A stretch of DNA of 64,000 bases from Daphnia pulex (lineage: Eukaryota; Arthropoda; Branchiopoda; Diplostraca; Daphniidae). The notes beneath the pieces were generated by a model. It had not been told where the DNA came from, searched no databases, and saw nothing but the letters and a program-made list of their open reading frames with translations. Position numbers and translations under genes: made by a program. Numbering within the stretch: the first letter of the stretch is position 1; every line of letters begins with the position of its first letter. The stretch spans positions 6,448,001 through 6,512,000 of the forward strand of contig NC_060021.1 in assembly GCF_021134715.1 (NCBI RefSeq), in the 5' to 3' direction. Positions 40,581 to 64,000 of this stretch are shown piece after piece.

Positions 40581-40585
40581 TGGGG

Positions 40586-41865
40586 GCTTCGTATTTTTAT
40601 GCTGCTGTGGTTGTGGTGTACGCTTCAGTTGTGTAGTAGGCCGGTTCAGAGTAGTAGGCAGGGGCAGCCGTTGTATAATAAGGAGCCTCGGCGTAGTAAA
40701 CCGGAGCAGCAGTTGTGTAGTAAGGAGCTTCAGTGTAGTAAACTGGAGCAGCAGTGTAGTAGGAGCCTCAGTGTAGTATACAGGGGCGGCAGTTGTGGTG
40801 GTGTAGTAAGGAGCCTCGGTGTAGTAGACCGGTGCAGCAGTGGTGTAATACGGAGCCTCGGTGTAAGCTGGAGGAGCATAGTAGCATGGAGCAGCATAGG
40901 TTGTGGTATAAACTTCCGTGGAATAGTAGACCGGAACAGGAGTAGTGTAAACCGGAGGAGCATAGTAGCTTGGAGCGGCGTAGGTTGTGGTGTAAACCTT
41001 GGTGGTGTAGTAACTGGGCTCGGTGTAATAGGCAGGAGCAGCTGTGGTGTAGTAAACTATAGCAGGATTGGCGTAGTAGACTGGTTAAACATACGGCGCA
41101 ACTGTGGTGTAGACCGGAGGCGAGTACTAGCTACGCGCGGCATATGCAACTGTGGTAGTATAGTAGGTCTCAGTAGGGTAGTAAGCGTAGAAAACGACAA
41201 CAGTTGTAGTGTACGGGGCAACAGTCGGGTATGACTCCTAGAAACCACAGAATGTTTTAGCGACTTTAACACATTTATACTTATGATAACCTTACCTGAT
41301 AGTACGACGCCGGTGTTGTTGCTGGTGGACAATAACAAGGAGTCGTAGCATAATATGCTGGAGCCTGAGGAGTCTGCCTTTTCTTCTGGGCATTATAACC
41401 ATAATCAACCTGTAAATCCAAAACAATTGTTTAAGACAAAACTCTTGATTAGTTTCCGAACGGGGCTTACTGGGTAGTAGGAAGCAGGAAGTTGTGGTCG
41501 GTGGAGGAGAATAATACGTAGCCGACGTTGTGTAGCAGGATTCAGGTGCGGAGTAGACACTGCGGTTCATCTGATGACCATATCTACCCTATTTAGACAT
41601 TTAATCGTTTTTCCACAACAGGAATACTTGAAGTTTACTTAAATATGTCGGCACAGGTGTGGTGTAGTACTATGGTTCCTCGGTATAGTATTTAGGAGCT
41701 TCTGTGTAGTGCTTTGAAAGTTTGAAGTATAGGTGTAATTGGCCGACGGTAGGGCATGTCTTTGTTGATGCCGTTGATCATTCATCTCCGGACCGAGTTC
41801 AGGCATATAAGCTGATTGGGCATACTCGCAGCCAGCGAGACCAAGATCATGAAACAACATGCTAA
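40586..41865 (-). pseudogene. YTEAP-repeat protein pseudogene (copy A)
   Basis: Minus-strand remnant of a secreted low-complexity protein built of units such as APVYYTEAPYYTT, an unnamed Tyr/Thr/Pro-rich type resembling structural (cuticle, silk or eggshell) proteins. The 5' exon (near 41865) carries a signal-peptide-like stretch (CCFMILVSLAAS) that is out of frame with the repeats that follow. An 8-bp insertion near 41720 (absent in copy B) shifts the frame again. Stops interrupt the repeat array (PYYV-type units near 41085 and 41130), and one base is missing in a repeat near 40760. Two small introns near 41230-41290 and 41410-41470 are still visible. Not a functional gene in this form. Confidence 0.7.
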
Positions 41866-42270
41866 AGAAACCTAAATAACCTGGTGAAACGAGCGAAAGT
41901 GAAAAGAAGAGGCTCTGAACAGAAGAAAAAAAAACACAGGAAGAAGAGGAAGAGAAAACGTCATGTCGAAATAAAGGACGAAAAAAGTTGGAAGAAGAGC
42001 GGATGCTTGACTCCTTAAAGTTAAAGTAAATGGCTGGGATTCCCCTTCACAAACACATTTGCAGCTGTTTTTTTTTTTTTAATTTCGTCCTTTCTCTAGA
42101 AAAATATATTCTCCATGCTGAGTAACCAAGCGTTCAGTTCAGACGGTAACAAAAGTACGGAAAATAACAAAAGGGAGAGTGTCGGGAATTTTTTCAAAAG
42201 TTTGGAATTTTGTAAATTAAACAATAAAATAAAGTTGAAAAGATTGCGACAAAAAAAGCCATCTTTGGGG

Positions 42271-44452
42271 TTAAACGGTGGGTTTAGACTTCGATCGTTT
42301 CTTTTTTCCTTTCTTGTTCGGCTCGGCGAGTTCCGAATCCAAGTCGGCAGACAACGATAGACTGACGTTCAAGGGATTCAGTTCCCGTTCTGAGAAAAAA
42401 TACTTGCGTAATTCAGCATCTGGCAAATCGTTTTCATTCAAATCGGGCGCATCCAAGATCGCTTCTTCTTCCGCGGTTAGTTCTTCCGATAAAAAAATTG
42501 AAAAAATAAAAACATTATAACCAAGGCGTAGGATAAAAGAGACAATTTCAAAAAAGAGAAGTTAAAACAATATAAACCTCTTGGTATAACAGGTGCAGTG
42601 ATGGGCTCATTGATCCTTGCCGTCTCTTCTTCCTGGTACAACGCTTCAATAGCAATATCTTGGAATTGAAAGATTTGCTCCAGATACTTGGGTATGTCGT
42701 TAGTGCATTTACCCTCTTTCTCAATCCAAGTCATGTGTTGGAAGAGCGGTAACAATTCCTTCGAAATTTGTAAGACACTCCTTTTGATGTGGTTGGCAGT
42801 TCCATCGCCGATGTCAAGGTTAGTTAACGTCAAATACTTCTGAAAATAGCCTTTCTTATTTGGTTCGATGAGTTCTTTGAATGGCACTTCGCTGTTGAAG
42901 TTCTTGTCATAATAATGACATGATTGCCATGCTAGGAAGCCTGCGGCGATGGTGATGATGCGACGGTCGAAACTTTGCTTGGTCCGCCGATCAAAAATTG
43001 AAACGATGTTGTTTGTGATGTTGTAGACCCGTTCAGTTATTTCCACAGACGACTTGAAAGGATCGTGGATTCTAAGGCTGGGTAGAACTGAACGGGCATG
43101 GTGGAGAACTACAGGGATGGATCTTGAACTTCCAGCTTCACATGTGGTTGTTGATTTGTTTGTGAGTTGAGGCGGTTCAGGCAACTCTTTGAGGTACCTT
43201 TCTAGTTTTTTCAGAGTAGCGCCAAGTTGATAATGAGTAACCGGAGGGGTTACATTTAGAACAGGTGCAATTTGCTTGATGGAAATGCCCTTCTCTTTTC
43301 GATATACAAAGATGAAGACAGCAGCTGCCGCTGTTGTAAGGTTGCGACGTCCTTTGAGATCTTGAAAAATATCCAGCATATGGTTTTTTAGGTGTTCAGC
43401 ATTAAATGCCCTGCAGAGTGTTTCGATGGTATCTACTCCTTCTTCTCTTCCCAGGAAGATGGAAGCCTTGGAAGATAAAACCTGCTTTCCCTGGACCCGT
43501 GCTCCAGAAACCACAGACTTGGGCCTGAAAAATTTGTAAATGTAGTCATCTAAAATTCAAGGAAATCTGGGTTTTTACCTCTCTTCTTCTTCAGACTCTT
43601 CGGACTCTTTAACAACTTTAAGTGCCTCAGCTTTTCCTTTGGGATGTTTTGGAAGCTTTTTTCCTCCAACTTTCACTTTGAGTCCAAGATCCAACTCAGC
43701 TTTTGTTCCCAGTAAGGTGGGAGACTTGGGAGAGAAAACCTCCTTTCCTTTGATTCGTGCTTCAGAAATCACCACATCAGTTTCAAGCCTAAAAAAAAAA
43801 TGTAGTCATGTGAAGTTCAAGGAAATTAGGGTTTTTACCTCTCTTTCTCTTCAGATCCTTTGGACTCTTCAGACTCTTTAACAAATTTACGTGCCTCCGC
43901 TTTTCCTTTGCGATGTTTTGGAAGTGGAACCTTATTTCCTCCAACTTCCACTACGAGTCCAGCATTCAATTCAGACTGTGCTCCCAGGAAGATGGAAGCT
44001 TTGGGAGAGAAAACCTTTTTTCCTTTGACCCGTGCTCCAGAAATTACCACAGTCTTGCACCTGAAAAAATAATTAAATGTAGTCGTGTGAAATTTAAGGA
44101 AATGGAGTTTTTTACCTCTCGTTATCTTCAGACTCTTCCAACTCTTCAGACTTTTCAAACTCTTCAGTCACTTCAATAACTTTAGGTGCCACAGCTTTTT
44201 TTTCGTGATGGTTTGAAAGTGGAATCCTTGTTTCTCCAACATTCACTGCAAAAAGAGATAAACATCACAATCAATGTACCAGTAACAAAGAACAGGTTGT
44301 AGATAAATTGAAACATTCCGATGCAAAACAACATAAACTTGCATGTAACCATGACATAACATAGCAACAACAGGAACTGACTTGGAACAGAAACAATACT
44401 CACTAGCTGGGAGGTTTCCATCTTTCACTTTAGCTTTCTCAGAGTCAGACAT
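42271..44452 (-). CDS. Unfamiliar protein with repeated exons and possible TFIIB/BRF-like cyclin fold (copy A)
   Basis: Six exons: 44404-44452, 44116-44245, 43839-44060, 43579-43788, 42578-43524 and 42271-42482. Phases agree, giving 589 residues. Exons 3, 4 and the start of exon 5 are related copies: each encodes a VVISGARVKGKKVFSPKASIFLG-type unit (about residues 64, 139 and 208), and exons 3-4 add a Lys/Glu-rich linker ending in ESEES..EER. Residues about 235-480 are helical. The segment GRRNLTTAAAAVFIFVYR followed by SIKQIAPVLNVTP resembles the first TFIIB cyclin repeat, and SFDRRIITIAAGFLAWQ may lie in a second. The C-terminus has an acidic DLNENDLPDAELRKYFFSERE motif reminiscent of BRF1, then a Lys/Arg tail like a nuclear signal. 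No zinc ribbon is seen. The gene looks intact. The family call is tentative; the coding structure is well supported by the conserved copies. Confidence 0.72.
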
Positions 44453-46761
44453 TTTTCGTTTGTTCACTATAGAAAGACAAATGTGATTCTAATGGTCAAG
44501 AAATACAAGAGAACTGCGTAGCTACTTGAAGACAAAACTGACAAATCGCAAAAAGTTGCTTTCTATTCTGTCTTCTTCTCAATAGCTTTCCTCTAAAACA
44601 CTCGCTTGCCTTTGATATGTCGATTTTTGACGTAAAAAGTATTTCTTTTTTCCCGATTCTGTTTTCTACTGACTGTTGTTATTAACCTAACATGTTTTCA
44701 TTTTGGATTTCATGTTTTCATCCAAGACAGTTGAAATAACAAATAAGGTATCGATACCAGCTGTTGTCTATCGGACTTGAATTGTAGTGCAGAGTTGCTA
44801 GATTTCTAAATTTCGTCAAGGAATAATTCTTGAATGCTAAAAAGGTAAATAAATACACAGGAAAATAATAAAAAGCTCCAGGAAAATATCGTTATTATGA
44901 AAATAAAAAAACTATTGAACGAGACAATGATCGAAATGACAGCACGTCGTGAGGCGATCGTTCATGAAGGCTAGAAATGAATGAGCTAATCAAGCTTCTG
45001 CTTGTTGGAATAAATTAGATCCGCTAGATTTGTTCCCTTATCTATTTAAATACTTTATCTTTTCTTTTCTTTTTAAAATGAAGTCGCTGGTGTTACTGTA
45101 CTGAGCAGCACCAGAGAGACTGGAGGTTGTTCAATGAAAGGTTTTGTGTGTGTGTGTGTGGACCGATGGTGTCGTATTCCCGCTTTAGCTGCGTCACGAG
45201 TCTGCTCAAGTCACCGAACAAATAATCAAAAGGGAGTGTAAAAAAAAGAGGAATGTATAAAAACCCTACGTCCAGGAAGAGAGAAAGAGAAAGAATGAGA
45301 ACTTTGGTCGAAAGAGGAAACCTATGATGAAAGTCAGGAGGATCAAAGCACACGAGAAGCAAAAAGTTATCGGCAGTCTGTGTAGTTATACGACTGGGTG
45401 TAGAAGCCGCCAGCCAGCCAGCTAGCGAGCCCTTCTTTTTTCTCCCAACTGATAAAACTCACGTTCCACCGAGCCCTGCCACTTGAACGAAAGCCACAGC
45501 CCAGTTCACTCGTCTTTCTCTTCATCCAGGTAAGCGATTTCTCCCCCCACTTACCTTAGAAACTTTGACATTGTAGAAAAAAGAAGCTCCATTTTGTCGT
45601 CCAGACGTGTGAGATTCACGTGCTCGGAGACATAACAATAATACTACCCGTACATACGCGCTGTACACATTCGTGATGTATCATTCGCGGCGTGTTGAGT
45701 GATTATTTTTAGAGTTTAGCAGGTGAAGCTGGCTCGGAAAAATCCCGAGAGTCGGGAATCTCTATCGAGTGTTTTCGTGTGTGAGACTCGCTCGCCGTCC
45801 TTTCACTGTGTATATTTTTGCTTGATTATTCATGAAGGCAGGGTGCAGCTCTGTTTCAACAATTTTATATATTGGCTCTCATCCTTATTGTCATTGTTGT
45901 TTACTCCCGACCAGCAGAGCTCTCGCGTCTCACCTATCTACTTTTTCCTATTTTCGAAAGAAATGAAAACAGCGGAAAACAGAAGATGTCAAATATGTCT
46001 ATCAGTTAGAGGGACCACTGTTGATGCCAAAATCACAAAAGTGTGGTAGGGAATCTTGATCTTGTTATGTCGAAAATTATCAAAAGGAGAAAAGGTGAAA
46101 GAAGGTGAAAGAGAGAGAATTAAATAAGCCAGAAGAAGTTAACGAATACTGCCAGTGTTAATATTATTCCCGATAAAAGCGGATAAAAGTACGCCGAAAA
46201 AAGAAGCTTAATTAGCCTAATACCATAGCATTTGTTAAATGTTTCTTCAGCATTATTTTTAATATCACCTTTTTTCACTAGTTCGCAGTCAGCAGTCGCT
46301 TATAAAGTAGCCAGCTGGCGGTAATATTTTCAAAAATTTAATTAGGTACTCAATTAAAATCTATTCGGGTCGGGCGGCCATATTTTTTAGGGCGAAATAG
46401 GAACTAAACATTTTTATGAATAAAGTTAAGTGGCAAAAATATTGAATTCAAGGAATAACTGAAAGAATTTCTACCAAAATTCAATTAAGTTGGAAAAAAA
46501 AAGAAATTAAGAAAAATGAAGTTGCACAATTAACTGCCAGAATAGGATGTGGGTCGGCGGCCATCGACTATTGCCAGAACACTTTGGACGTGTGCATCTT
46601 TTTAAATTAATCGCAGATTTTTTTTCACGATGTGTGTTAAAATTTTACTAGTATCGATTAATCATCGATACACATGTCTGCTGAAATGGCTGAAATGCTG
46701 AAATTTAAAAACATTTTCTTTTTGATTTTATAATTATGTATAGTTATTACATATAAACATG
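44453..46761. other. Intergenic DNA upstream of the cyclin-like gene, copy A
   Basis: AT-rich. The first 250 bp should contain the promoter of the minus-strand gene. A GC-richer stretch at about 45360-45535, ending in CAG before GTAAGC, looks like a noncoding 5' exon of an unknown plus-strand transcript. No coding exon that would follow it was found in the window. Otherwise nothing recognisable. Confidence 0.4.
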
Positions 46762-47110
46762 GGGTGAGTGGGTGTATTGGTTAAGGCGTTAGGCCTAATT
46801 GGGGATAAGTGCAGAGGTGCACTTTGAGACCAGGGTTCGAACCCCTGGTATAACATTGTTGTTTGGCTATATACCCACTATGGCGCCACTGTGGCATCAG
46901 ATGTAATATCTACCCCGACCCCCGTGCTGGAGAGGGAACTCGGGAGAGTTGCTGAGGGATGTTTCGTCCAATAATCCTCAGCGCAAAAGGCGAATGAAAT
47001 GTGGAGTAATCGGAAACTGGCGCTGTTTATCTGGCAGAGCAAAGTGTCCTAAAATGCCTTGTTCCGTCGTGTTGAATGAATGTGTGTAGCAAAAGTTGGG
47101 CGCAGCGCTC
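46762..47110 (+). mobile_element. tRNA-derived SINE (class II tRNA type head)
   Basis: The head carries an A box (TGTATTGGTTAAGGCG, about 46778) and a perfect B box (GGTTCGAACCC, about 46833), the internal promoter of RNA polymerase III. The spacing between boxes and the GGTTAAGGCG form match tRNA-Ser/Leu, which have a long variable arm. Acceptor ends do not pair, so it is not a functional tRNA. A body of about 250 nt unrelated to tRNA follows. The 3' limit and target-site duplications could not be fixed. Such SINEs need a LINE in trans to move. Confidence 0.75.
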
Positions 47111-50100
47111 TATACGGGCTAGACGTATATCTTCAGTGATCATAAACGCATGGTTTCCACCGACAACTAATGTTGGCCGTGTCATGATATACCGCCGGGT
47201 GTATCATGTGGGCAACCTCTTGATAAATGCGATTATGTGAGGGATATTTGTGCTAGATTCAGATCCGTATATCCTGAGACGTATTATCTTATGTAAACCG
47301 TAGACTAGAGCTGGCCGTGGTGACCCAGTGCATACCACCCAACCCATTGCTATACTATGGAATTATCGTATACATTACATGTTCAAGCGATAATTAGTAT
47401 AACAAGCCCTACACACACACAATGGCGGATGCTCTCTCTCCTTGCTATTTCAAAGCAAAGTAGGGCGTGTATTTTTTTAATTCATTTGGTTTTCTAATTT
47501 TGACCGCCAGTTCAGAAAACAAAAAGTTTGATTCTGCCTTGGCAGCATAGACAACCTTGACCATCGACTATATAAGAAAAAGTAGCCATGTGAGGTGAAA
47601 GTTTCAGCACATTTTAATAGTTGTGACTCCCTTATGGTCAATTTTTCAAACATCACCGCATTCAAAAATGTCTATTCATTTTAAGGTCACATTTGAGTTT
47701 TGTTTTGTGGGCTGTTAAGTTTCAATTTATTGATTTCGCCAAGTAGGCTACTGGCTGTTGTCAAGCATTTTATATCTTACCGTAGCCTAGGGTAATTTAT
47801 AAATGTATTGGTAAATATATTTGAGAGAACTGGTGTGAATTTATCATTGAAAGTCGGCGATTGTTCTAAAAAAGTCTATATACAATCACTGTCATTTTAT
47901 TTTCGATTTCCAGTTAACTATGCTGTTTGCCGGAATACGGGAACGGCAGTTTGGCGGCCAATGGACAGATAACAGAACATCCGCCTTCCTGCAACCATTT
48001 ATGTGCTCCGGCAAACCGGAGAATGGGTTGAAGTTGAAGAAGAAAAATCATCGAAATTCCAATGCAGAGACAGCAGCACACACTCCTGCTGGTAAGTGAA
48101 ATTTGCTTCATGCTTTCTCTAGATGACATCTAGATCTAGAGATCTAGTAGATGTGTTTGAACGGGCAAGTGTATGGTAGTATTATTTTTTTTCGCATCAA
48201 TGGTCAAAGATTTTATAATGGTCTCACCGGAAGTAAACGCGCTGCTAGTTTTTTTAATTATTTTTAGGTGCAGTTAAGTGAGGCTCCAACTGAATGTTTG
48301 GATGTTAAGTTTTCTAGATTGCTTATATTATTTTGATGTTTTGGAACTTAAGCCGAGATTTTGCTTTTGATAAAGTATATTTAGTGATGCGGTTAGAATT
48401 TACGTTGTCAGGGTTACTAGTTCTTCTGATAGGATTTTTCTGATACTGATGGTGATTAAAACGGATCAAAATATTAATGGCTAATAGTCCTAGTCTTTGG
48501 GTTTTACACGATTTATGCATAGCAGCTTTAGGATATTTATTTTACCCCTTTTTCAGTAGGCCTACTTTAAGATTACTTAACACGTTAAGCATTTTGGTAA
48601 CGCATGGGACTCTGGGGAGCTTGCGTTGGCATTCGGCTGTTTAGCATTCGGCCACGATTGGTTGCGTCTATCCGTCGATCCAGAGCGTTGACCATCGGGA
48701 TCACGAATCTTTTTGGTGCATGTTGTTGGTATTGGAATGTTGCTGTTGCTGCCAAAGCCCATCCAGTAATACACTTTGACAAACCAATGGCCGTACGGAG
48801 CCTTCAAAATCAACTCCAACTTGGGCATCTTGACGCTCATCAACCTGCTGGATCACGAACAGCATCCCGATAGAAACTATATTTTTTCCAGGCTAAAAAA
48901 CGCTCCCACCTCTCAGTTATAGCCTACTATTATAGACAATAAAAAAATGAATATGAATTTATAAAAACTTTTGCGCGTAACAGGTATTGAACAACTGGCA
49001 TGGATGACTCAGATTCGTCCCCGACATCTTCTGTGAAACAAACTATATAAAATTAAAATATATTTTAAAATCTTACAACTCTATAAAATATGTTTTTGAA
49101 GATTTCTATTTGGAAATAAATTTTAAATCTAAATGATAATTAAAAAACGATAATTTATCCAATCACTGTTCATCTACAATAACCCGAACTTTATGTCACA
49201 GGATTCAAATCTTATTTCCCTGCGATTTCGAAAGTATATCGTCGGATAGACAGATACCACGTTTCGTATTAATACAGCCTCTAACCACCCCAAGGTACAA
49301 CTGCAGAAAGGTATACGGGCGGGCGTACTATAGATTTCACCATGTTAAACTGCTTGTTCAGACGCCTTAGCCATTAGGCTATACGAATGTCTAATAGAAT
49401 GTTATTTGTAATCATCCACTATCGTCCAACCATGTACGACTAGCGCAAAAAAAAATAACACAGGCCATCTAGCGGCAAAACTTTGGTTAATTTGATGAAA
49501 AAACGGGCTTAAATTTAAATTCAAACTAACTAATTCCGGTCAAATACTTTTTAGTGTGACAGATTTGAATAGCGGATCTTTGACGGAGGGAGCGTTCTGA
49601 AATCGGGGGATTCTCACCCAGTTGGACGTGATCGATAGGTGGCGTATTACTGAAAACGGATAGCCACCTGAGACTGGACGTCATTCGATCCGGCCTCGTC
49701 CATCCCGACGCGGATCTCAATCAATCCCATGGAGCTGAGCGACAGCGGATCCTTGTCCGTTTCCAGCAACCACAGGTGGAAGAGGTGGCCCGATTCACTT
49801 CGTGCCGATCATTTCCTGACAAGGGCGATGCTTAGCGCGGCTTAGCGCTCGGAATTTGGTCGACACTCAGGCCATTCTTCGTGACAGAGGAACCGGATCT
49901 GCTCACGGATTTTGCGTCAACATCAGTGAAACAAGTAAAAATATAAAATATCAGAAAAGTTAAATTTAAAATTTCCATTAATCAATATACCAAAACAGGA
50001 AGGACCCATCCTCTTTCACAGCGCTGAAGTAGGACCTTTGGAGAATAACGAGTCTCAACTGTTCATTTTGACTATTTCACCTGGGGAGAGTCACGGTCAC

Positions 50101-50532
50101 TGCAATAAGTACAACAATTTAAAACAATGTCTAGCAAAATTATACCACACTTCCGACTGAAGATCAACGAAGATCACAACGGTTAAGCCGTACTCAGCAG
50201 TAACGGTCGCCATCATGTAGTAAAGGAAATTCTGGGTCTTCCTACTAATATCGGAGAGGCCACGTTTCCATGAATCTATAAGCTTTCAGTTCTAAGTTGA
50301 TTAAATGTTTGTCTAATTACTTGACATGACTGAACAGCTGGATCTCTCCTTAAGTTTTGAATACAATCACCATAAGTTAATACCGATGGCAATAACATAA
50401 TCTATGACTATTAACATAAAGATTCTCTGAAAAAGATATTCGAAATAACAATTCCAGGGTAAAAAGTTTTACATTTTAGAGCTATTAATAGACGCATAGA
50501 CTGGAGGAGAATAATTGCTAGGTGGAGCGTAA
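47111..50532. other. Mostly noncoding DNA between the SINE and copy B
   Basis: AT-rich, no complete gene. Short minus-strand stretches with protein-like composition occur at about 50155-50290 (FLYYMMATVTAEYGLTVVIF), 49640-49800 (GLIEIRVGMDEAGSNDVQ) and 48577-48843. They have stops between them and no convincing splice chain, so they may be remnants of one decayed gene. A tRNA-like A box lies at 49371-49381. Confidence 0.35.
49340..49395 (-). mobile_element. Possible decayed tRNA-derived SINE fragment
   Basis: On the minus strand, TAGCCTAATGGCTAAGGCGT fits a tRNA A box and resembles the head of the SINE at 46762. No clear B box follows, so this is at best a truncated copy. Confidence 0.3.
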
Positions 50533-51800
50533 GTGGGAGCTTCGTATTTTTATGCTGCTGTGGTTGTGGTGTACGCCTCAGTTGTGTAGTAGGTCGGTTC
50601 AGAGTAGTAGGCAGGGACAGCCGTTGTATAATAAGGAGCCTCGGTGTAGTAAACCGGAGCAGCAGTTGTGTAGTAAGGAGCTTCAGTGTAGTAAACTGGA
50701 GCAGCAGTGTAGTAGGAGCCTCAGTGTAGTATACAGGGGCGGCAGTTGTGGTGGTGTAGTAAGGAGCCTCGGTGTAGTAGACCGGTGCAGCAGTGGTGTA
50801 ATACGGAGCCTCGGTGTAAGCTGGAGGAGCATAGTAGCTTGGAGCAGCATAGGTTGTGGTATAAACTTCCATGGTATACTAGACCGGAGCAGGAGTAGTG
50901 AACCGGAGGAGCATAGTAGCTTGGAGCGGCGTAGGTTGTGGTGTAAACCTCGGTGGTGTAGTAACTGGGCTCGGTGTAATAGGCAGGAGCAGCTGTGGTG
51001 TAGTAAACTGTAGCAGGATTGGCGTAGTAGACTGGTTAAACATACGGCGCAACTGTGGTGTAGACCGGAGGCGAGTACTAGCTACGCGCGGCATATGCAA
51101 CTGTGGTAGTATAGGTCTCAGTAGGGTAGTAAGCGTAGTAAACGACAACAGTTGTAGTGTACGGGGCAACAGTCGGGTATGACTCCTAGAAACCACAGAA
51201 TGTTTTAGCGACTTTAACACATTTATACTTATGATAACCTTACCTGGTAGTACGACGCCGGTGTCGTTGCTGGTGGACAATAACAAGGAGTCGTAGCATA
51301 ATATTCTGGAGCCTGAGGAGTCTGCCTTTTCTTCTGGGCATTATAACCATAATCAACCTGTAAATCCAAAACATTTGTTTAAGACAAAACTCTTGATTAG
51401 TTTCCGAACGGGGCTTACTGGGTAGTAGGAAGCAGGAAGTTGTGGTCGGTGGAGGAGAATAATACGTAGCCGACGTTGTGTAGTAGGATTCAGGTGCAGA
51501 GTAGACACTGCGGTTCATCTGATGACCATATCTACCCTATTTAGACATTTAATCGTTTTTCCACAACAGGAATACTTGAAGTTTACTTAAATATGTCGGC
51601 ACAGGTGTGGTGTAGTACTATGGTTCCTCGGTGTAGTATTTAGGAGCTTCTGTGTAGTGCTTTGAAGTATAGGTGTAATTGGCCGACGGTAGGGCATGTC
51701 TTTGTTGATGCCGTTGATCATTCATCTCCGGACCGAGTTCAGGCATATAAGCTGATTGGGCATACTCGCAGCCAGCGAGACCAAGATCATGAAACAACAT
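50470..51800 (-). pseudogene. YTEAP-repeat protein pseudogene (copy B)
   Basis: Same gene remnant as in copies A and C, with the same one-base loss near 50710 and the same stops in the repeat array near 51035 and 51080. It lacks the 8-bp insertion of copy A near the 5' exon, so the 5' exon reads on to TYTSKHYTEAPKYYTEEP before an in-frame TAG. Its 3' end differs from the other copies beyond 50533: the reading frame there continues as APTYAPPSNYSPP, which looks like the original C-terminus. Confidence 0.7.
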
Positions 51801-53412
51801 GCTAAAGAAACCTAAACAACCTGGTGAAATGAGCGAAAGTGAAAAGAAGAGGCTCTGAACAGAAGAAAAAAAAACACAGGAAGAAGAGGAAGAGAAAACG
51901 TCATGTCGAAATAAAGGACGAAAAAAGTTGGAAGAAGAGCGGATGCTTGACTCCTTAAAAGTTAAAGTAAATGGCTGGGATTCCCGTTCACAAACACATT
52001 TGCAGCTGTTTTTTTTTTTTTAATTTCGTCCTTTCTCTAGAAAAATATATTCTCCATGCTGAGTAACCAAGCGTTCAGTTCAGACGGTAACAAAAGTACG
52101 GAAAATAACAAAAGGTAGAGTGTCGGGAATTTTTTCAAAAGTTTGGAATTTTGTAAATTAAAAAATAAAATAAAGTTGAAAAGATCGCGAAGAAAAAAAA
52201 AGCCATTTTTGGGGTTATACGGTGGGTTTGGACTTTGAACGTTTGTTTTTTCCTTTCTTGTTCGGCTCGGCGAGTTCCGAATCCAAGTCGGCAGACAACG
52301 ATAGATTGACGTTCAAGGGATTCAGTTCCCGTTCTGAGAAAAAATACTTGCTTAATTCAGCATCTGGCAAATCGTTTTCATTCAAATCGGGCGCATCCAA
52401 GATCGCTTCTTCTTCCGCGGTTAGTTCTTCCGATAAAAAAATTGAAAAAATAAAAACATTATAACCAAGGCATAGGATAAAAGAGACAATTTCAAAAAAG
52501 AGAAGTAAAAACAATATAAACCTCTTGGTATAACAGGTGCAGTGATGGGCTCATTGATCCTTGCCGTCTCTTCTTCCTGAAACAACGCCTCTATAGCAAC
52601 ATCTTTGAACTGCAAAATCCGTCCAAGGTATTTGGGTATGTCGTCCGTGCCTTTTCCCTCTTTCTCAATCCATGTCATGTGTTGGAAGAGCGGTAACAAT
52701 TCCTTCGAAATTTGCAAGACACTCCTTTTGATGTGTTTGGCAGTTACATCGCCGATGTCAAGGTAAGTTAACGTCAAATATTTCTGAAAATAGCCTGTCT
52801 TATTTGGTTCGATGAGTTCTTTGAATGGCACTTTGCTGTTAAAGTTCTTGTCATAATAATGACACGATTGCCATGCTAAGAAACCTGCAGCGATCGTTAT
52901 GATGCGACGGTCGAAACTTTGCTTGGTGCGCCGCTCGAAGACTGCAACGATGTTATCCGTGATGTTGTAGACCCGTTCAGATATTTCCACGGACGGTAGG
53001 AAAGGATCTTGTACTTTGAGTTTAGGAAGAACTGAACGGGCATGATGGAACACTACAGGGATTGAGCTTGAACTTCCAGCTTCAGATGTTCTTGTTGATT
53101 CTAACGAGGGTTGAGGCAGTGCGGGGAAATTCCCTTTGAGGTGCCTTTCAACTTTTTTCAGAATTGCGCCAAGTTTGTACAGTGTGACTGGAGGGGAAAC
53201 ATTAAGAACAGGCAAGATTTGCTTGATGGAGATTGGCTGACACTTCCTTCGGTACACAAGAATGAAAACAGCAGCTGCCACTGCAGTAAGGTTGGTTCGC
53301 TCTTTGAGAAGCATGAAAGTTTCCATCATTTCCTTTTCTAGGTGGCCAGCACTAAATTCCCTGCAAAGTGTTTCAATGGCATCGACTCCAACTTCTCTTC
53401 CCAGGAAGATGG
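50533..53412 (-). repeat. Segmental duplication copy B
   Basis: About 2.9 kb related to 40580-43455 (copy A) and 60950-63820 (copy C). The repeat pseudogene, the spacer and the last exon of the cyclin-like gene are nearly identical to the other copies, while parts of the large exon are clearly diverged. The right edge is a clean switch into unc80 sequence at about 53412. Confidence 0.88.
52215..53412 (-). pseudogene. Cyclin-like gene fragment (copy B), 5' exons replaced by unc80
   Basis: Only the large exon (from about 53412 down to 52522) and the last exon (52215-52426) are present. The exons with the repeated GARVKGK units are missing. The frame is open through both exons, and the protein keeps the cyclin-like core, with many substitutions relative to copies A and C, especially in the first half. 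Just upstream the same open frame continues into unc80 codons, so a chimeric product (UNC80 fragment plus cyclin-like core) is possible in principle. Called a pseudogene because it has no start or promoter of its own. Confidence 0.7.
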
Positions 53413-56400
53413 GTTCGAACACGTTGCGGAACTGATGACCGGCATTGATGTAGGTGGCCATGCAGACGGCGTCTTCACAGTAGAGGACCAACGCTTGATG
53501 AAGTTGATCACGTTGATGAAGAGGTGGATGTCCCCCGAATAAGCAAAGTTGCCCACCATGGCTTCAAACATTTGTCGGATTAGTTTCACCCAGCTGAGCT
53601 TGTGCATGAAATCCCGAACGTACGCTGATGGATTGTGGATCTGGTTGGTCCGGTAGTCGACCAGGAAGTACTCGCGCTGTCTGTGCTCGTCGATAGAAAA
53701 GAAATCGAGCGATTCTTGCAATATCTGCGAAAATTGCGTGTCTTCCTGGATGGGGAACTGGGACGGAATGGCGCCGGAATCGGATTCGTTGGGCCCGTGA
53801 ACCACAATCTTCTTGGCAGATGGAACGTTGGCCGTGATCAGGATCGAAGCATCGCATTGCTCCTTGCGTAAAATCTGCTTGAGATCCTTAAACAACAAAC
53901 CCTGAACACTTGGCGCCACCTATGAAACAAATTTCAAATTCAATTTCTCCATTTCTACAACAATCGAGTCGTTTTATACGAATCTCACCATGGATAACAA
54001 GGATAAGGCATTGCCGACTAGATCCTGACTGCCCTCCATCGGAGTCCGGACGTAGAACATGATGTAGCCGATGAGATAATTGTGTAGAGTGAAGGCCGTC
54101 TGTTGCGGCAGGTAGGCAACAAAGCGCAAAAGGCGGCGCAAAATAGCGAACATCTCGTCCTGTTTTTCACGAGTCAATCGTTCCAGGATGTGGCGCAGGA
54201 AAAGGGCAGTATCTTCCACCAAACACGAATGCAGTACCTTATTTTTTTTTCAACAGAAAATTATTATTTTTATTTTCAAAATGATTTTTAAAACTGGCGG
54301 GCAATACCTGATTAGCCAAATCGCAGACGGCCACGCCATCTGGCGTTAGAACGGAATCGTCCAAAAGGTCGACGATGGGGACGATAGCCGAGCACAAACA
54401 CGACGGGAAAAGAAACTGAGCCGATTGTAAAGGCTGACCAGAAGTCCGGCTTTGCTGTTGGGCTTCATCATCTGCTAAAATTTGTTTGGAAAACATTTTT
54501 CAAATTTTTAAAATGTTAATTTTTTTAAAAACGTGTTCAACTATTTACTACCATCGTCATGATCGTCTGCTCCGACGTGATGAAGCGCCGGTTCGTAAGA
54601 CGCTTGGATCGTGACGGGAACGGCGCTAATGCGGAAATTTTCCCGCTCGCTGCATTTGCGATCCTCTTCGTCTTTGAGAGCCGATTCGACCAGTTCAGTT
54701 TGTTGTTTCTTCCACGTCTTGGTGGCCGTCACCAGCGAGCGGTGCGTGTCTTGGTTGAGCGTGACTTCCTGGACTCTGGTGCGGACGTGTGGCATCCAGG
54801 GAGGATCGACCACCGGCAGAGATTCCACACCGATCCTGGGCGATGGCAAGGTGAACTCAATGGCATGTGGTGGCACTTTGAATGAGTGAGCAGCGCCTTC
54901 TTCCATCCGCGGCCAGACTTGATACCTCGACCGCCATAAAACTTGAAATCTGATCATTAGGATAAAAAATTAAACGACTGTTACTAAACTTTCCTGATTT
55001 CGCCCTAATAAATAGACGTTACTTGAGAAGTGCTTTGAATCGTTCAATTGGATCTGGATGTCTCAAACTTCCGTTGAGTAGGAGGGTTATGGGTTCCGGA
55101 CAGCGGACGGCCGACAGGATAAACATGGCGGCAGCCGCGGCAACCGTTTCCTTTTGGACGTCCAGGAGCAGTTCCCAGGCGATCGGGATAATGTCGAGAA
55201 ATGCCTCGTCGTTCATGATGGTGGCACTTTTGATGGGAACCAATAGCGGAGCTTGGAAAAGATTCATCACCTGAGAAGAATCCAAAGGGAATTCATTCAT
55301 AATTCATCTGGAATTGGCCGAAAATTTTCCAGTTGATTTTATACCTGGAATTTGATGTATTTCACCATGGGGTGATCCTCCTTTTTCTTGGATTTATTCT
55401 CGTCGCCATCGCTTTCGTTGGGAAAGTGTTTGCTCTGGAGTCCCATGACTTTGTTGCGGTCCCATTGGTCGTGTTCGATTTGGTTGCGTGACAAGGTGGC
55501 CGATGAACTGTGGCAAGAACTCGCCTTTGACAGCAAATCGTTGGTGGATCTGTCATTAACAATCCCGTCAATATTTCCCCCGCACGAATAAAATCTTTTG
55601 TGACAATCCCTCACCTTTCTTTCTTGTTGGCGACACTTTCTCTTCGCCTCAAAGGAGATCCTGGTCTGCTCTGGGCTCCTTTTGAGGCTTTTTCCTTTTT
55701 GTCGTGGTCCTTGTGATGTCGAGACTTTTTACTGAAACTCAGAAATTCCACGACTTCCTGGTGTTGCGGCTCGTCGCCGTAAATCTTCCGGACGCTACTC
55801 AGCATCCGGCTGCAGGCCCGGCTCTGTCTGCGGAAGCACCGGGGGTGGCACACGTGTTGATGTTGGCATTGGTAGTAGAACGAATTGGACAGCAACAAAA
55901 CCGACTGGATGGAAAAGAAAGTTTTTAAAACTCACGGAACAAGTTCACATTAAACTTATGGAAATCCATTTTACTCGGAGCCAAGGCATTCCACGAGTAG
56001 AGATTCCTTCCTCGATGTCGGCTGCACCGTCGCTGGGACTTTCGTGTTGGCCGTCGTCGCTGAGGATTCCGGGACTCTCTTCCCCCGAGATGTCGTGATC
56101 CATCGGTACGTCCGAGATGTCACTACGATCCGATATCGACGAGACTTTTCGCTTCGAGCGGATCGAATCCGATCGCTTGATGGATTCGGCGTCGGATTGG
56201 TCGCCACCGCGGCGGGACTCGCGATGACTCCGTCTCAGTTTCAAACTCCTACTCCTCCGCTTGAAAGATCCCGTGTTGCTCATGGTGCTCCGTCGGAGTA
56301 GATACGGCCGTCCTTGAGCCAGCCGTCGGTTGCGTTTCTCTTCCATCGCATCATCCCCTGGAAATTGGTCTAGGTTTTACAAAACTGCTGTAACAAATTC

Positions 56401-59092
56401 AGGAAATGAAATGACAAACCTGAAACGTGAGGGTCGTGTTGCTGCTGTCAAGCGATTCATCGTCTGGTTCGTGAAGGACGAAACTGATTTTGCGTTCCCC
56501 TGGAACTCCGCCAATTGAATGCCCGTCTCCGGTGATGGATTGGAGACTCTGAGCGGAATTCTGAGACTGGCCCATGGAAGACAGGGCCATACTCCAACGT
56601 CGTCCACCTGCTGGATTGCTGGCCGGCGTCGCGATGGAAGTGGTGGCCAAGGCTAACGATCCCGATCCTCCCGTTCCACCGGTTGAATGGTGAGTGAAAG
56701 ATTCGCCACTGGAAATGACAACGGCACCGGAAGGAGCTCCGCCACTAGCCGGATTGCCGCCGCGTGTTTGCTCATTAAACGAAGAGCCGGAAGCGACAAT
56801 GAGGCTACCGCCCGTGTTGTTTCCGCCGCCCGTTTTACTGGTGGCGTCGTTGCTCCGCAGTGAAACGCGCGTGGAGCGGGGAAGGCGACGGTAGGAATCC
56901 CGCAGGAAAGCCGTGATTTCATAGAGGAGCATACAGGCAGCCAAACGTAATGGCCAGGGGAAGTCTCGCCCGGAAGGGTTAACACTCGCTACAATTTGAA
57001 AATGATAAAAAGACAATCAATTATGAATGACGAATAATTTATTCAACGACAAAAAACTCAATTACCTTCAACTAGAAAGTCTTCATTCTCTTCGTCCTCG
57101 ATGAGAATTCGTTGACGTTGTTCATCCATGGCGTGGGCGTCGTAGTCTTCGCAACAAAGCGCATCATCAATCAGAATTTCTTCCAACCGGACTCCGATTG
57201 CCTGTAAAACAATTTTGGGTGGGGGGGATTACAAATTGATTCGGGAGAAAAAATCCGAGTGGGCGGAATTAAGGGAAAACGAACCTCGGCCCAGGAGAAA
57301 AACATTCGACCACCCAATCGTTGGAGAATGTGCGTTCGCCTCTGCCCTGATGGAGTTCCACGGTTAGATAAAGGCCCCGACGGTCGATAGAACGGCAAAT
57401 TCAACTTCATCCAAGACGGCCACTGTCCGCGGTTGCAGCGGTTGACAAAATGGGCGCACTCGAACAGAAAAGCGGCTCGAGCGATCACCGGACGGTGATT
57501 GTGGCTGCGTGCACAGAGAGGGAAAGAGAAAAACACACACAAAAATCAATAAATGCAAATCAAAATCCTTTGCGTGGGAATTTTGTTTTTCCTACCAAAT
57601 CGAGAACGGCAGCGATAAGGTTGGCATCGGGTATGGCCCCTGGTTGACAAGCTTCCAAAAGGAAACTCAATCGAAGCATTCCATCGTAAATGGCCGGCCC
57701 TGAAACCATTTTCCTTTCCCTGGGAATGACCACAAACATTTCTCTTCCATTTCCATCCATCTCGGGTGAATTCCGCCGACTCTGATCTTTTGAAAAGAAA
57801 TCAAAAAAAGTCGTAAAAAAAGAAATGAAAAGGTATCGATTTCATTTTTTTCTTCTATTCAAACTCACCTGGTGTCGCTTCACGGCTGATGATTTGCCGT
57901 CGGCTCTTGCCAAAACCGATCCGCGTTAAATGATGTTCCACTCGCCGGCGGGCCTTTTGTAAGGTGACGCCCACATTACTACAAAGCGAATAATAACGTC
58001 ATTAAAATGGCGACGGAGATGAAACGAAAAACAGAAACGCGGACGAGAGACTCACTTGCTGCCCGTTCCTCTCTGCTGCAATTTCAACAAAGAAGGAGCT
58101 ACGGCTTGGGCGACATCCAGCGGCTCTTCACCAGCCCCTTGGCTGTTGGGCCCTTGACACCGACGATCCTTGCGCATCCAACCAACTTTTCAAAATAAAA
58201 GAGAATAAATAACGCCAGTCACATAACAACTCGATTATGATCTCTCTCTCTCTCACTCACCTATTCCGAGTTTTTGGGAACTCTTCCGGCTGCTACGGTT
58301 GCTGATGACAGGGAAGCGCTGCTTCACTTTGGGTTCCTTCTCCCTGAACCTCTGGGCAGAGAGGGCGAGTGCGTGAACCACCGAGCCTTTGCGTATCAAA
58401 TTCCTTTCGTCACTCCAGCCATCCATTTCACTGTGTTAACCACCACCCATCAAAGACGAGCGTTAGTAAGTACTCGATCCACAATATCGCGTTACGGCAC
58501 CACGGCCGCCGGGAAAATCAATAGGCTTTCAAGGAAAGAGAGAAAAAATACCCTCGAGTCAAGTACTTACCTCGCATTCTTTTTGCCCTTCCGGTTCTTT
58601 TCCGAAGTCGTTTCGTCCACGACGAAGAAAGTGACAGTCGTCTCCTGTCGATTGCAAACAATCCCTGGGGGGAAAAACAATTGAATTTTGGAATAAATTT
58701 GAATGAATTTCTCGGTTTCTTATACTTGAAATAGCCACTGTTTTCGGGCGGAGTGTCTTGCGGTTGTTCCAACGTGCGGCCGAATCCAACAGTCCACTGA
58801 GCAACACCCGCCGGAAGATTCCGCCGTGGACGTCTTTGATGTAGGCCAGCAATTGGCGAACATCGCAATACAGCGCCTTAAACCAAATCAATTATTATGA
58901 AGCCAAACAATTTCGATGAAATGTATCAGGATCAAAAACACTTACGACATTCTCGGATGACTTGAGGAATTTCAACGAGGCCGTGAGTCGGGTGACGAAC
59001 GGTTTGAAGATGCAATTGATGACGTGTCCTTCGATGGTCCGAGGGGAACCGAAATTGGGCACGTAACTCGTTCCAGTTTGTTCGACTCCCAA
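53413..59092 (-). CDS. unc80: UNC80 homologue, internal part only; lesions present
   Basis: UNC80 is a large scaffold of the NALCN sodium-leak channel complex in neurons. Exons recognised (5' to 3'): 58946-59092, 58726-58876, 58571-58664, 58261-58430, 58056-58185, 57869-57978, 57596-57786, 57285-57504, 57066-57201, 56420-56988, 55975-56358, 55615-55904, 55345-55549, 55023-55270, 54552-54949, 54308-54474, 53989-54237 and 53413-53920. They encode about 1450 of the roughly 3200 residues usual for the family. Conserved landmarks: FGSPRTIEGHVINC, FRRVLLSGLLDSAARWN, ARAAFLFECAHFVNRCN, RYQVWPRMEEGA and QGLLFKDLKQILRKEQC. Odd: the 5' end stops at 59092 without a clear acceptor. One base appears lost near 53497. 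About 90 residues are missing after YVRD in the last exon. The phase between exons 7 and 8 (57596 and 57504) does not fit. The 3' part is replaced by copy B. Confidence 0.88.
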
Positions 59093-60950
59093 ACGGGAGT
59101 CGTTCAGTAGTATAGTTCAGGATAATTCTCAAAACCGGAAGTACGCGTACGTACAAATAAAAACATGAACTTTACCACAAATTTGACGAGGATCACAAAT
59201 ATGTGGTTTTTTTGTGCTTCGAATGAATATTTACTGAACTACTGACTGAAATGAGAAAACCAGAAGTAGAAAAAAAATCAGTTATCGAAAATTTAACAGG
59301 TGAGCTTTGTTGCTGGAATAGTTATCGTCAGTTTTCACTAAATATTTCAACAAAATAACTGTCGATTAATGCTTAAAAAGATGTTCAAAGTAACGGAAAT
59401 TGACTGTTTTGACAGCTAAAATTATCGAAAAGCCATCTAGCGTTAGAAAAAAGAAACGCCCAAGTAAAACTTCGTTTGCGCGTAAGAAGGCCCTGAATTT
59501 GGAAAGTATTACACAGACAGAGTTTAACGCAACTAGACTATTATTAGATAACCTACGAAAAATAAGTCAATTGTTGGGTACCTGGGCATAATCCTGTGGT
59601 GAGTGACTGCAGGTGTGTAAGAGCGGACGGAGGTGATCACTGAAGTGGTCCAGAAACTCGCGAAGTCGCCAGTGAAGTCAAACAAATTGTGTTTAGAAGC
59701 AGTAAAGCTAGATGAGCATGCGTCACAAAGATAAGTGTGGAGAAGAATGTTGGTGGAAGTCCTTCTTCGGTCATGGACAAAGGTCAGCATTGGCACAAGA
59801 ATGTCCGTGCCAGGACCACACCATTCCATAAAGAAACTGCGTGCTCTGTAAAAAAAAATGATACATTAATGAAAATATAACAATGAAAAAAGCAGATCAA
59901 TCCTTACCTTTTCTAAGAAGCAAACTGAATTGTTATGATGAAAAAAACGTAAAAATGAAATTCACAGCAACCAACAGCATTACTCCAAATGTTGAGATAC
60001 ATCTCCTGATGCTAAAGAAAGTGTATGAATCATGAAGTATTGCAGTAGTGTGGTAATAGGTGGTATTGATGCTTACCCTTATCCTATGGGTGATGAATTT
60101 AGCAAGGCATTTGACTTTCATCAAGCAGATCTGGTACCACGTTCATACAAATGGCAGGATATTCACTTCACATGCTTCATGTCTCTGAAACTCTAAGTGG
60201 GAATGGGACAAGGAAATTCTCATATTATTTTCAAATTTACACAAATTTACTTATCGAGAAATAAAACTTACCTATCCTTTAGCTGGGTTGCCTTCTAAAC
60301 AGAAGTAAACAAATGAATGACAACAAACATGCTGTTGCAGGGCACGCCATCAAAAATTGCAAGATTCAGAAAAGATCCTATGGTTCACACGGAAGGATAC
60401 CTATGTTATAAGAAAATATGAATTGTAATGGTCTAGTAGCAAAAAGACTACGAATTCGTAGTCTGTGGTAGCAGTAAAAATGGGGAAATACCTTATCTCG
60501 GCACATTTGTATTCCACTACCTGTGGGTATCAAACATTAGTTTTAGCCTTTAGGCTTCTGACAGCATGGGTCTATTGGATGGAAAGTGACTGACAGTATG
60601 CATGTATGCATAATGCATCTAGAATTTGAAAGAAATAAGTTGGTACAGTATAAACAAAAGGAAGTCAGATACGAATCAGATACGAAGTTCAATTTGGTAA
60701 TTGAATCACAGGAATATAAGTATAAATAAGCTACAATTTGTTTCGGCCATTTTGGCTCGTTTAACGATGTAACAACAACAAGGGCAACACTAGCGACATC
60801 TGGTAATGAGTTTTTGAATCCTAAGTTGGTTGCTCAGTCACAGCTCAAATTATTGGAGTTCTATTGTCGCGTAGTATTGTCGGGTATTTTTGATAAAATA
60901 TTGGGGTTCTAGTGTGGTTGTTTTCGTTGAAGTTCCAACGACAAGTGGGG
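59093..60950. other. Unexplained spacer of copy C
   Basis: Counterpart of 38719-40580 with a few substitutions and indels. The minus-strand stretch beginning MEWCGPGTDILVP (59533-59829) is open. The hydrophobic stretch near 59933-60124 is shortened by a missing base in an A-run. No family recognised. Confidence 0.35.
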
Positions 60951-60954
60951 GCTT

Positions 60955-62228
60955 CGTATTTTTATGCTGCTGTGGTTGTGGTGTACGCTTCAGTTGTGTA
61001 GTAGGCCGGTTCAGAGTAGTAGGCAGGGGCAGCCGTTGTATAATAAGGAGCCTCGGTGTAGTAAACCGGATCAGCAGTTGTGTAGTAAGGAGCTTCAGTG
61101 TAGTAAGCTGGAGCAGCAGTGTAGCAGGAGCCTCAGTGTAGTATACAGGGGCGGCAGTTGTGGTGGTGTAGTAAGGAGCCTCGGTGTAGTAGACCGGTGC
61201 AGCAGTGGTGTAATACGGAGCCTCGGTGTAAGCTGGAGGAGCATAGTAGCTTGGAGCAGCATAGGTTGTGGTATAAACTTCCATGGTATACTAGACCGGA
61301 GCAGGAGTAGTGAACCGGAGGAGCATAGTAGCTTGGAGCGGCGTAGGTTGTGGTGTAAACCTTGGTGGTGTAGTAACTGGGCTCGGTGTAATAGGCAGGA
61401 GCAGCTGTGGTGTAGTAAACTATAGCAGGATTGGCGTAGTAGACTGGTTAAACATACGGCGCAACTGTGGTGTAGACCGGAGGCGAGTACTAGCTACGCG
61501 CGGCATATGCAACTGTGGTAGTATAGTAGGTCTCAGTAGGGTAGTAAGCGTAGAAAACGACAACAGTTGTAGTGTACGGGGCAACAGTCGGGTATGACTC
61601 CTAGAAACCACAGAATGTTTTAGCGACTTTAACACATTTATACTTATGATAACCTTACCTGATAGTACGACGCCGGTGTTGTTGCTGGTGGACAATAACA
61701 AGGAGTCGTAGCATAATATGCTGGAGCCTGAGGAGTCTGCCTTTTCTTCTGGGCATTATAACCATAATCAACCTGTAAATCCAAAACAATTGTTTAAGAC
61801 AAAACTCTTGATTAGTTTCCGAACGGGGCTTACTGGGTAGTAGGAAGCAGGAAGTTGTGGTCGGTGGAGGAGAATAATACGTAGCCGACGTTGTGTAGTA
61901 GGATTCAGGTGCGGAGTAGACACTGCGGTTCATCTGATGACCATATCTACCCTATTTAGACATTTAATCGTTTTTCCACAACAGGAATACTTGAAGTTTA
62001 CTTAAATATGTCGGCACAGGTGTGGTGTAGTACTATGGTTCCTCGGTATAGTATTTAGGAGCTTCTGTGTAGTGCTTTGAAAGTTTGAAGTATAGGTGTA
62101 ATTGGCCGACGGTAGGGCATGTCTTTGTTGATGCCGTTGATCATTCATCTCCGGACCGAGTTCAGGCATATAAGCTGATTGGGCATACTCGCAGCCAGCG
62201 AGACCAAGATCATGAAACAACATGCTAA
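60955..62228 (-). pseudogene. YTEAP-repeat protein pseudogene (copy C)
   Basis: Counterpart of 40586-41865 with the same out-of-frame signal-like 5' end, the same 8-bp insertion near 62085, the same stops near 61450 and 61490 and the same one-base loss near 61125. Only a few bases differ from copy A, including one in the repeat with the lost base. Confidence 0.7.
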
Positions 62229-62633
62229 AGAAACCTAAATAACCTGGTGAAACGAGCGAAAGTGAAAAGAAGAGGCTCTGAACAGAAGAAAAAAAAACAC
62301 AGGAAGAAGAGGAAGAGAAAACGTCATGTCGAAATAAAGGACGAAAAAAGTTGGAAGAAGAGCGGATGCTTGACTCCTTAAAGTTAAAGTAAATGGCTGG
62401 GATTCCCCTTCACAAACACATTTGCAGCTGTTTTTTTTTTTTTAATTTCGTCCTTTCTCTAGAAAAATATATTCTCCATGCTGAGTAACCAAGCGTTCAG
62501 TTCAGACGGTAACAAAAGTACGGAAAATAACAAAAGGGAGAGTGTCGGGAATTTTTTCAAAAGTTTGGAATTTTGTAAATTAAACAATAAAATAAAGTTG
62601 AAAAGATTGCGACAAAAAAAGCCATCTTTGGGG

Positions 62634-64000
62634 TTAAACGGTGGGTTTAGACTTCGATCGTTTCTTTTTTCCTTTCTTGTTCGGCTCGGCGAGTTCCGAA
62701 TCCAAGTCGGCAGACAACGATAGACTGACGTTCAAGGGATTCAGTTCCCGTTCTGAGAAAAAATACTTGCGTAATTCAGCATCTGGCAAATCGTTTTCAT
62801 TCAAATCGGGCGCATCCAAGATCGCTTCTTCTTCCGCGGTTAGTTCTTCCGATAAAAAAATTGAAAAAATAAAAACATTATAACCAAGGCGTAGGATAAA
62901 AGAGACAATTTCAAAAAAGAGAAGTTAAAACAATATAAACCTCTTGGTATAACAGGTGCAGTGATGGGCTCATTGATCCTTGCCGTCTCTTCTTCCTGGT
63001 ACAACGCTTCAATAGCAATATCTTGGAATTGAAAGATTTGCTCCAGATACTTGGGTATGTCGTTAGTGCATTTACCCTCTTTCTCAATCCAAGTCATGTG
63101 TTGGAAGAGCGGTAACAATTCCTTCGAAATTTGTAAGACACTCCTTTTGATGTGGTTGGCAGTTCCATCGCCGATGTCAAGGTTAGTTAACGTCAAATAC
63201 TTCTGAAAATAGCCTTTCTTATTTGGTTCGATGAGTTCTTTGAATGGCACTTCGCTGTTGAAGTTCTTGTCATAATAATGACATGATTGCCATGCTAGGA
63301 AGCCTGCGGCGATGGTGATGATGCGACGGTCGAAACTTTGCTTGGTCCGCCGATCAAAAATTGAAACGATGTTGTTTGTGATGTTGTAGACCCGTTCAGT
63401 TATTTCCACAGACGACTTGAAAGGATCGTGGATTCTAAGGCTGGGTAGAACTGAACGGGCATGGTGGAGAACTACAGGGATGGATCTTGAACTTCCAGCT
63501 TCACATGTGGTTGTTGATTTGTTTGTGAGTTGAGGCGGTTCAGGCAACTCTTTGAGGTACCTTTCTAGTTTTTTCAGAGTAGCGCCAAGTTGATAATGAG
63601 TAACCGGAGGGGTTACATTTAGAACAGGTGCAATTTGCTTGATGGAAATGCCCTTCTCTTTTCGATATACAAAGATGAAGACAGCAGCTGCCGCTGTTGT
63701 AAGGTTGCGACGTCCTTTGAGATCTTGAAAAATATCCAGCATATGGTTTTTTAGGTGTTCAGCATTAAATGCCCTGCAGAGTGTTTCGATGGTATCTACT
63801 CCTTCTTCTCTTCCCAGGAAGATGGAAGCCTTGGAAGATAAAACCTGCTTTCCCTGGACCCGTGCTCCAGAAACCACAGACTTGGGCCTGAAAAATTTGT
63901 AAATGTAGTCATCTAAAATTCAAGGAAATCTGGGTTTTTACCTCTCTTCTTCTTCAGACTCTTCGGACTCTTTAACAACTTTAAGTGCCTCAGCTTTTCC
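62634..64000 (-). CDS. Unfamiliar protein with possible TFIIB/BRF-like cyclin fold (copy C), 5' part outside the window
   Basis: Exons 62634-62845 and 62941-63887, and part of a third from 63942, correspond one to one with exons 6, 5 and 4 of the gene at 42271-44452. The large-exon protein is identical to copy A throughout, and the C-terminal acidic motif and Lys/Arg tail are the same. The window ends inside the exon carrying the second repeated unit, so the start lies beyond 64000. No lesions are seen. Function and family uncertainty are as for copy A. Confidence 0.7.

Follow-up and report, generated by a model that had tools for sequence, protein, structure and literature searches.

Does the in-frame join of unc80 to a cyclin-like gene at this locus of Daphnia pulex mark a damaged unc80 gene, or a rearrangement of another kind? 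The first-pass annotation attributed the join to a microhomology-mediated rearrangement that deleted the C-terminal part of unc80 and the 5' exons of one cyclin-like copy, and that could make a chimeric protein. We analyzed a window of 64,000 nucleotides (C5:6448001-6512000) in an assembly of 133.19 Mb and 13 contigs; positions without a contig name refer to the window. Three copies of the cyclin-like gene, A, B, and C, lie at 43.4, 53.4, and 63.8 kb, and a further copy, D, lies downstream of the window. The putative gene called cuticle-like here was given this label from the repeats within it. The cyclin-like gene itself showed only a sub-threshold TFIIB repeat in copy A (E 0.0035, 17.8 bits against a cut-off of 23.6), Pfam scans of copy D and of a paralogue on C7 gave no credible family match, and neither did a comparison with solved structures. 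A non-exhaustive literature search combining Daphnia with unc80, chimeric gene, or segmental duplication did not find this locus, and we make no claim that it is undescribed.

Alignment with C8, D, and A placed the join at 53413..53414, in agreement with the switch proposed near 53412. Unc80 sequence continues to approximately GTGTTCG and is followed by the cyclin-like sequence CCCATCTTCC. The minus-strand frame across the join is open from stop to stop (52421..53563, 380 amino acids), with its earliest in-frame ATG at 53461, and its translation passes from ALVLYCEDAVCMATYINAGHQFRNVFEP into IFLGREVGVD; SIFLGREEGVD was found at the corresponding place of copy A, as had been noted. A second copy of the join is present at C5:6521663-6521913, with 251 of 251 bases identical. 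The main unc80 exon frame (53338..53919, minus strand) is shifted near 53503, where the window has 8 bases and C8 has 3 (net +5 bp), and it ends at a wrong-frame stop at 53338 inside the cyclin-like exon. Because approximately 90 bp separate this frameshift from the join, the cyclin-like frame takes in only about 26 codons of unc80, and the remainder of unc80 is out of frame. Between the shift and the cyclin-like part there are 28 residues, of which about 26 are from unc80 and the last two (EP) were created by the join. The 380-aa frame, one of six window frames scanned, matched no Pfam family. When two coding frames are joined at random, they agree one time in three, and the in-frame run from unc80 into the cyclin-like gene is accidental.

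The identification of unc80 was borne out by the other five of the six frames, which matched UNC80 Pfam models: UNC80_C with E values of 1.5e-59 and 2.8e-31, and the central UNC80 region with 5.7e-61, 1.1e-24, and 1.1e-17. Solved UNC80 chains also matched (E 2.6e-32). The unc80 segment extends over 5.7 kb (53414..59098, minus strand), is colinear with C8:13402647-13408752, and is 96.4% identical to it over 5,652 aligned bases, gaps excluded. It holds 13 full or partial exon pieces and a scarred last one, lacks the N-terminal exons, and begins and ends inside coding exons. Its introns are retained, indicating a copy made at the DNA level.

Four lesions were found in this segment, three of them within approximately 200 bp of the join: the +5 bp shift, a 12-bp deletion near 53467, and the scar of a 382-bp deletion (53610..53617, minus strand), at which coding sequence and an intron are gone and which is bordered in C8 by GGATT on both sides. 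The fourth is a 1-bp deletion in an upstream unc80 exon (58772..58772, minus strand) that causes a frameshift and is common to three partial copies. The sequence missing at the scar is ancestral, because the alignment with solved UNC80 skips residues 2061 to 2156 there; a gain of an intron in C8 was considered for the 382-bp difference and rejected, as the sequence is largely coding and present in solved UNC80. Of these partial copies, the third is truncated to the upstream end of the segment (37535..38735, minus strand); it is joined to the same dispersed repeat as the segment and differs from the copy at 57926 in 3 of 1,184 bases. With a parent gene on C8, retained introns, and disabling lesions, the unc80 segment of the window is best read as a dead partial pseudogene of an ordinary kind.

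We further examined the fate of unc80 by profile searches of the whole assembly. UNC80_C gave 17 matches, 11 of them on C8, covering profile positions 2-1031 of 1079; the remaining six are on C5, divided equally between two tandem copies. All three UNC80_N matches were on C8. The C-terminal exons described as deleted are thus present on C8 together with UNC80_N. A deletion of unc80 at this place was rejected, and unc80 is not truncated in this genome.

The 12-base stretch CCAGGAAGATGG, to which the microhomology had been ascribed, does lie exactly at the join, is shared with copies A and C, and occurs at other junctions of the family. It was found four times in the window (43451, 43984, 53401, and 63814) against 0.01 expected by chance, and seven times in 104 kb of C5. 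It was not found in 60 kb of C8 around unc80, and so it does not represent homology between the joined partners. The donor sequence on C8 reads differently across the join, and CCAGGAAGATGG, being cyclin-like sequence, was rejected as a microhomology with unc80. In the alignment with C8, no clear microhomology was seen at 53413; the only one was the 5-bp GGATT at the 382-bp deletion. What stands of the rearrangement first proposed is a genuine junction that links DNA derived from unc80 to a cyclin-like copy; the deletions, the microhomology, and the chimeric protein are not supported.

The join coincides with the end of a block of approximately 2.88 kb that holds the 3' exons of the cyclin-like gene and part of the cuticle-like repeat gene. 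This block was found in copy B (50531..53413, minus strand), copy A (40578-43462), copy C (60943..63825, minus strand), and copy D (C5:6530350-6533240). Copy C is a near-identical repeat of A; its block is a sister of block B and is followed by cyclin-like 5' exons absent from B. The alignment of blocks B and D spans 2,881 bases, 19 of which differ. Beyond the cyclin 5' edge, further cyclin-like exons follow in A and D, and unc80 follows in B. A, C, and D share a repeat-type flank at the cuticle edge, where B continues into other sequence; this edge of B also occurs in an inverted paralogue (C5:6408255-6408577, 84% identity over 336/341 bases). An authentic flank is therefore kept on one side by B and on the other side by A, C, and D. 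Rather than showing that the 5' exons of copy B were deleted, the end of the block shared by A, C, and D at this point fits an incomplete duplicate, with a loss of these exons as a possible alternative. Neither the C7 paralogue nor the inverted paralogue shows the empty site whole. The inverted paralogue is part of a relative of the cuticle-like/cyclin-like unit that is older, inverted, and located approximately 40-50 kb upstream of the window (C5:6395819-6409000, minus strand).

The interval of approximately 7.5 kb between blocks B and C consists of the 5.7 kb of unc80, 12 unassigned base pairs (59099..59110), and a dispersed repeat of 1.8 kb (59111..60942), whose right limit is the start of block C and whose similarity extends to about 60921. 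This repeat is truncated at the centre of its palindrome; the other half was present in all seven copies that were fetched. Among 534 candidates, 40 matches were scored, of which 3 are the local seams and 37 are 93-96% identical and spread over ten contigs. The palindrome at the centre of the repeat is perfect, and in several copies it reads GAATTTTCCTGAAC/TATAGTTCAGGAAAATTC. In the repeat before copy D, approximately 1 kb rich in ACTAGGTATT-type repeats is inserted (C5:6527611-6528645) and is flanked on both sides by ACTACTGACT, resembling a target-site duplication.

These results suggest a tandem duplication with the join as one of its seams, which holds unc80 DNA and a truncated repeat; we assign this reading a probability of roughly 0.6. 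The 2.88-kb block, comprising part of the cuticle-like gene and the 3' exons of the cyclin-like gene, would have been duplicated, and the seam between the block copies would have taken up approximately 7.5 kb of foreign DNA: the unc80 interior, the 12 bp, and the truncated repeat. Copy B would then retain the authentic flank on the cuticle side and would never have received the 5' cyclin-like exons, and copies of the A/C/D type would have the 5' exons and a cuticle-like gene cut by the repeat. Amplification of the unit in tandem would have come later. The seam may have been filled by template switching or by patch repair; we infer this mode and the order of events from the observed block boundaries, lesions, C8 gene, and tandem units.

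Several observations bear on whether the unc80 segment and the repeat were instead acquired at different times beside an existing cyclin-like copy, in a stepwise origin that we regard as unlikely but as the main competitor. Such a cyclin-like copy may never have had the 5' modules, with unequal crossing-over and gene conversion perhaps shaping the remainder. The divergences are unequal: the silent and non-coding sites of the unc80 segment are 6-7% diverged from C8, against 0.66% between B and D (19/2,881), so that a single event requires either a donor that had already diverged or conversion between B and D. The cyclin-like exon of A also differs from that of B by 10-22% (42481-43462 against 52531-53412; A-B dS 0.43) compared to 0.4-4% in the 2 kb adjoining it, a patchwork that looks like gene conversion. 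The join, moreover, is at an ancestral exon and module edge. The 13-mer CCCAGGAAGATGG (43450, 43983, 53400, 63813, and 64346), found at junctions of the cyclin-like family, abuts the join exactly. It also borders the repeated 5' modules in A and C, and homology with the C7 paralogue ends at it, where C7 has an apparent intron acceptor. A random duplication endpoint leaves this coincidence unexplained; it is the main point against the duplication seam and favors a stepwise origin or breakage at a preferred site. Against separate arrivals, the split between A and D is deep (cyclin-like exon dS 0.43, omega 0.29) and both bear the modules. B and D, in contrast, are separated by no synonymous and one non-synonymous change in 296 codons, and B is thus most simply derived from a module-bearing copy.

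The near identity of B and D also bears on a young functional chimeric gene, in which the 380-aa frame would be translated from the ATG at 53461 with a start derived from unc80. A long fusion in the unc80 frame is impossible because of the frameshifts; the short start is possible, and its support is the open frame itself with an in-frame ATG. In other members of the family the cyclin-like exon is under constraint, as the A-D omega of 0.29 shows, but B is so close to D that an open frame in it is uninformative, and we consider such a gene improbable. We consider it about equally improbable that the join is a chimeric contig. The first tandem unit (37535..59247) is repeated 20.4 kb downstream at C5:6505926-6527610 with 99.66% identity, and 17,711 bp of it (41537-59247) are identical to C5:6509900-6527610; to the left of this stretch, differences between the units reach 1.5% per kb. 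With the published mutation rate, the last duplication or homogenisation occurred less than approximately 15,000 generations ago, unless one of the units is an artificial duplicate made in assembly. Just past the array there is a gap of exactly 5,000 N (C5:6537501-6542500, position 89501-94500 in the extended window), so the array may be incompletely assembled, and the copy number of the unit is doubtful. The identical stretch in adjacent units and the gap would suit an assembly error, but the unc80 segment differs from C8 by 6%, carries rearrangements of its own, and is hence not misplaced C8 sequence; its other end recurs in the diverged third remnant (3/1,184 bases), which makes an error at the join unlikely. 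Capture of the unc80 segment by the neighbouring repeat, acting as a transposon, is the least probable reading. Intron-bearing captures are known for some transposons, and 12 bp separate the repeat from one end of the segment. The segment, however, is outside the recognisable repeat, the repeat is itself truncated at its palindrome centre, and a non-exhaustive search at the other side of the segment saw no repeat end.

The divergence of the unc80 segment bears on its donor. On comparing 13 exon pieces of C5 and C8, with piece x14 left out, we counted 55 synonymous and 15 non-synonymous changes (dS 0.072, dN 0.0058, omega 0.081). Four of the 15 are in piece x8, whose tail is probably intron (none remain when x8 is trimmed), so that the true omega is slightly lower, and the change in x2 adjoins a frameshift and may be an alignment effect. 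Among the 2,248 bases outside the listed pieces, a non-coding class that includes some exon ends, 6.0% are different. Without any constraint on the C5 copy after it separated from C8, approximately 89-93 non-synonymous changes would be expected (P <1e-21); this deficit indicates that at most approximately 16% of the C5 branch was unconstrained, leaving at least approximately 84% constrained. An omega of 0.081 over the whole divergence suggests long constraint, with the recent changes on the C5 side. In 15 trimmed pieces there are 14 changed codons, nine of which are covered by solved UNC80; it agrees with C8 at five of these, with C5 at none, and with neither at four.

In published sources, the mutation rate is 5.69e-9 (PMC11754708), the nuclear Ne is 640,000 (PMC9004417), and the silent divergence between D. 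pulex and D. obtusa is 0.134 (PMC12926508). On these figures, the expected silent diversity is 0.0146, one fifth of the C5-C8 dS of 0.072, and this dS is about half of the pulex-obtusa silent divergence. Because it is approximately five times the silent diversity, the donor, judged from one gene and simple counts, was no ordinary allele of the present C8 gene. On the same basis, the donor would be a diverged, functional unc80 copy, with decay that probably began recently, near the time of trapping in the seam; the decay time of unc80 is at most approximately 1.0 million generations and the B-D age approximately 0.6 million, an agreement within a factor of two. We tentatively regard the segment as a possible fossil of a second functional unc80 lineage now absent here, either a lost full-length paralogue or an introgression from another Daphnia lineage. 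Either would fit both the C5-C8 divergence and the small difference between B and D (19/2,881). Alternatively, the segment may have been part of an old duplicate on C5 that long remained functional, and B and D may have been kept similar by conversion. If the first of these donors is correct, trapped fragments are datable relics of lost gene copies or introgressed alleles.

The junction is real and its first explanation was wrong: it is best read as a partial pseudogene at a seam of a tandem duplication, with a donor of modest interest. This removes a false alarm of a broken unc80 and a candidate fusion protein, and the locus would be a clearly delimited case of a duplication seam that took up DNA from another chromosome. 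As in non-processed partial pseudogenes, the segment is an intron-bearing partial copy of a gene that is intact elsewhere, with frameshifts and deletions; unlike them, it is positioned exactly at the proposed seam of another duplication, and its donor is unusually diverged from the resident gene. In chimeric genes formed by partial tandem duplication, parts of two genes abut in the same orientation within a tandem array. The same arrangement is found here, but with the unc80 part mostly out of frame. Human cases described for FoSTeS/MMBIR (PMC5120786) combine a duplication with segments from other chromosomes, short templated insertions, and small microhomologies close to the junctions. The present locus shows a duplication with segments from other loci but no clear junction microhomology, and it is germline-ancient with a putative single-event origin, whereas the human variants were de novo or inherited (PMC5120786). 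It resembles them in that its two copies of the 2.88-kb block are separated by a C8-derived segment and a repeat.
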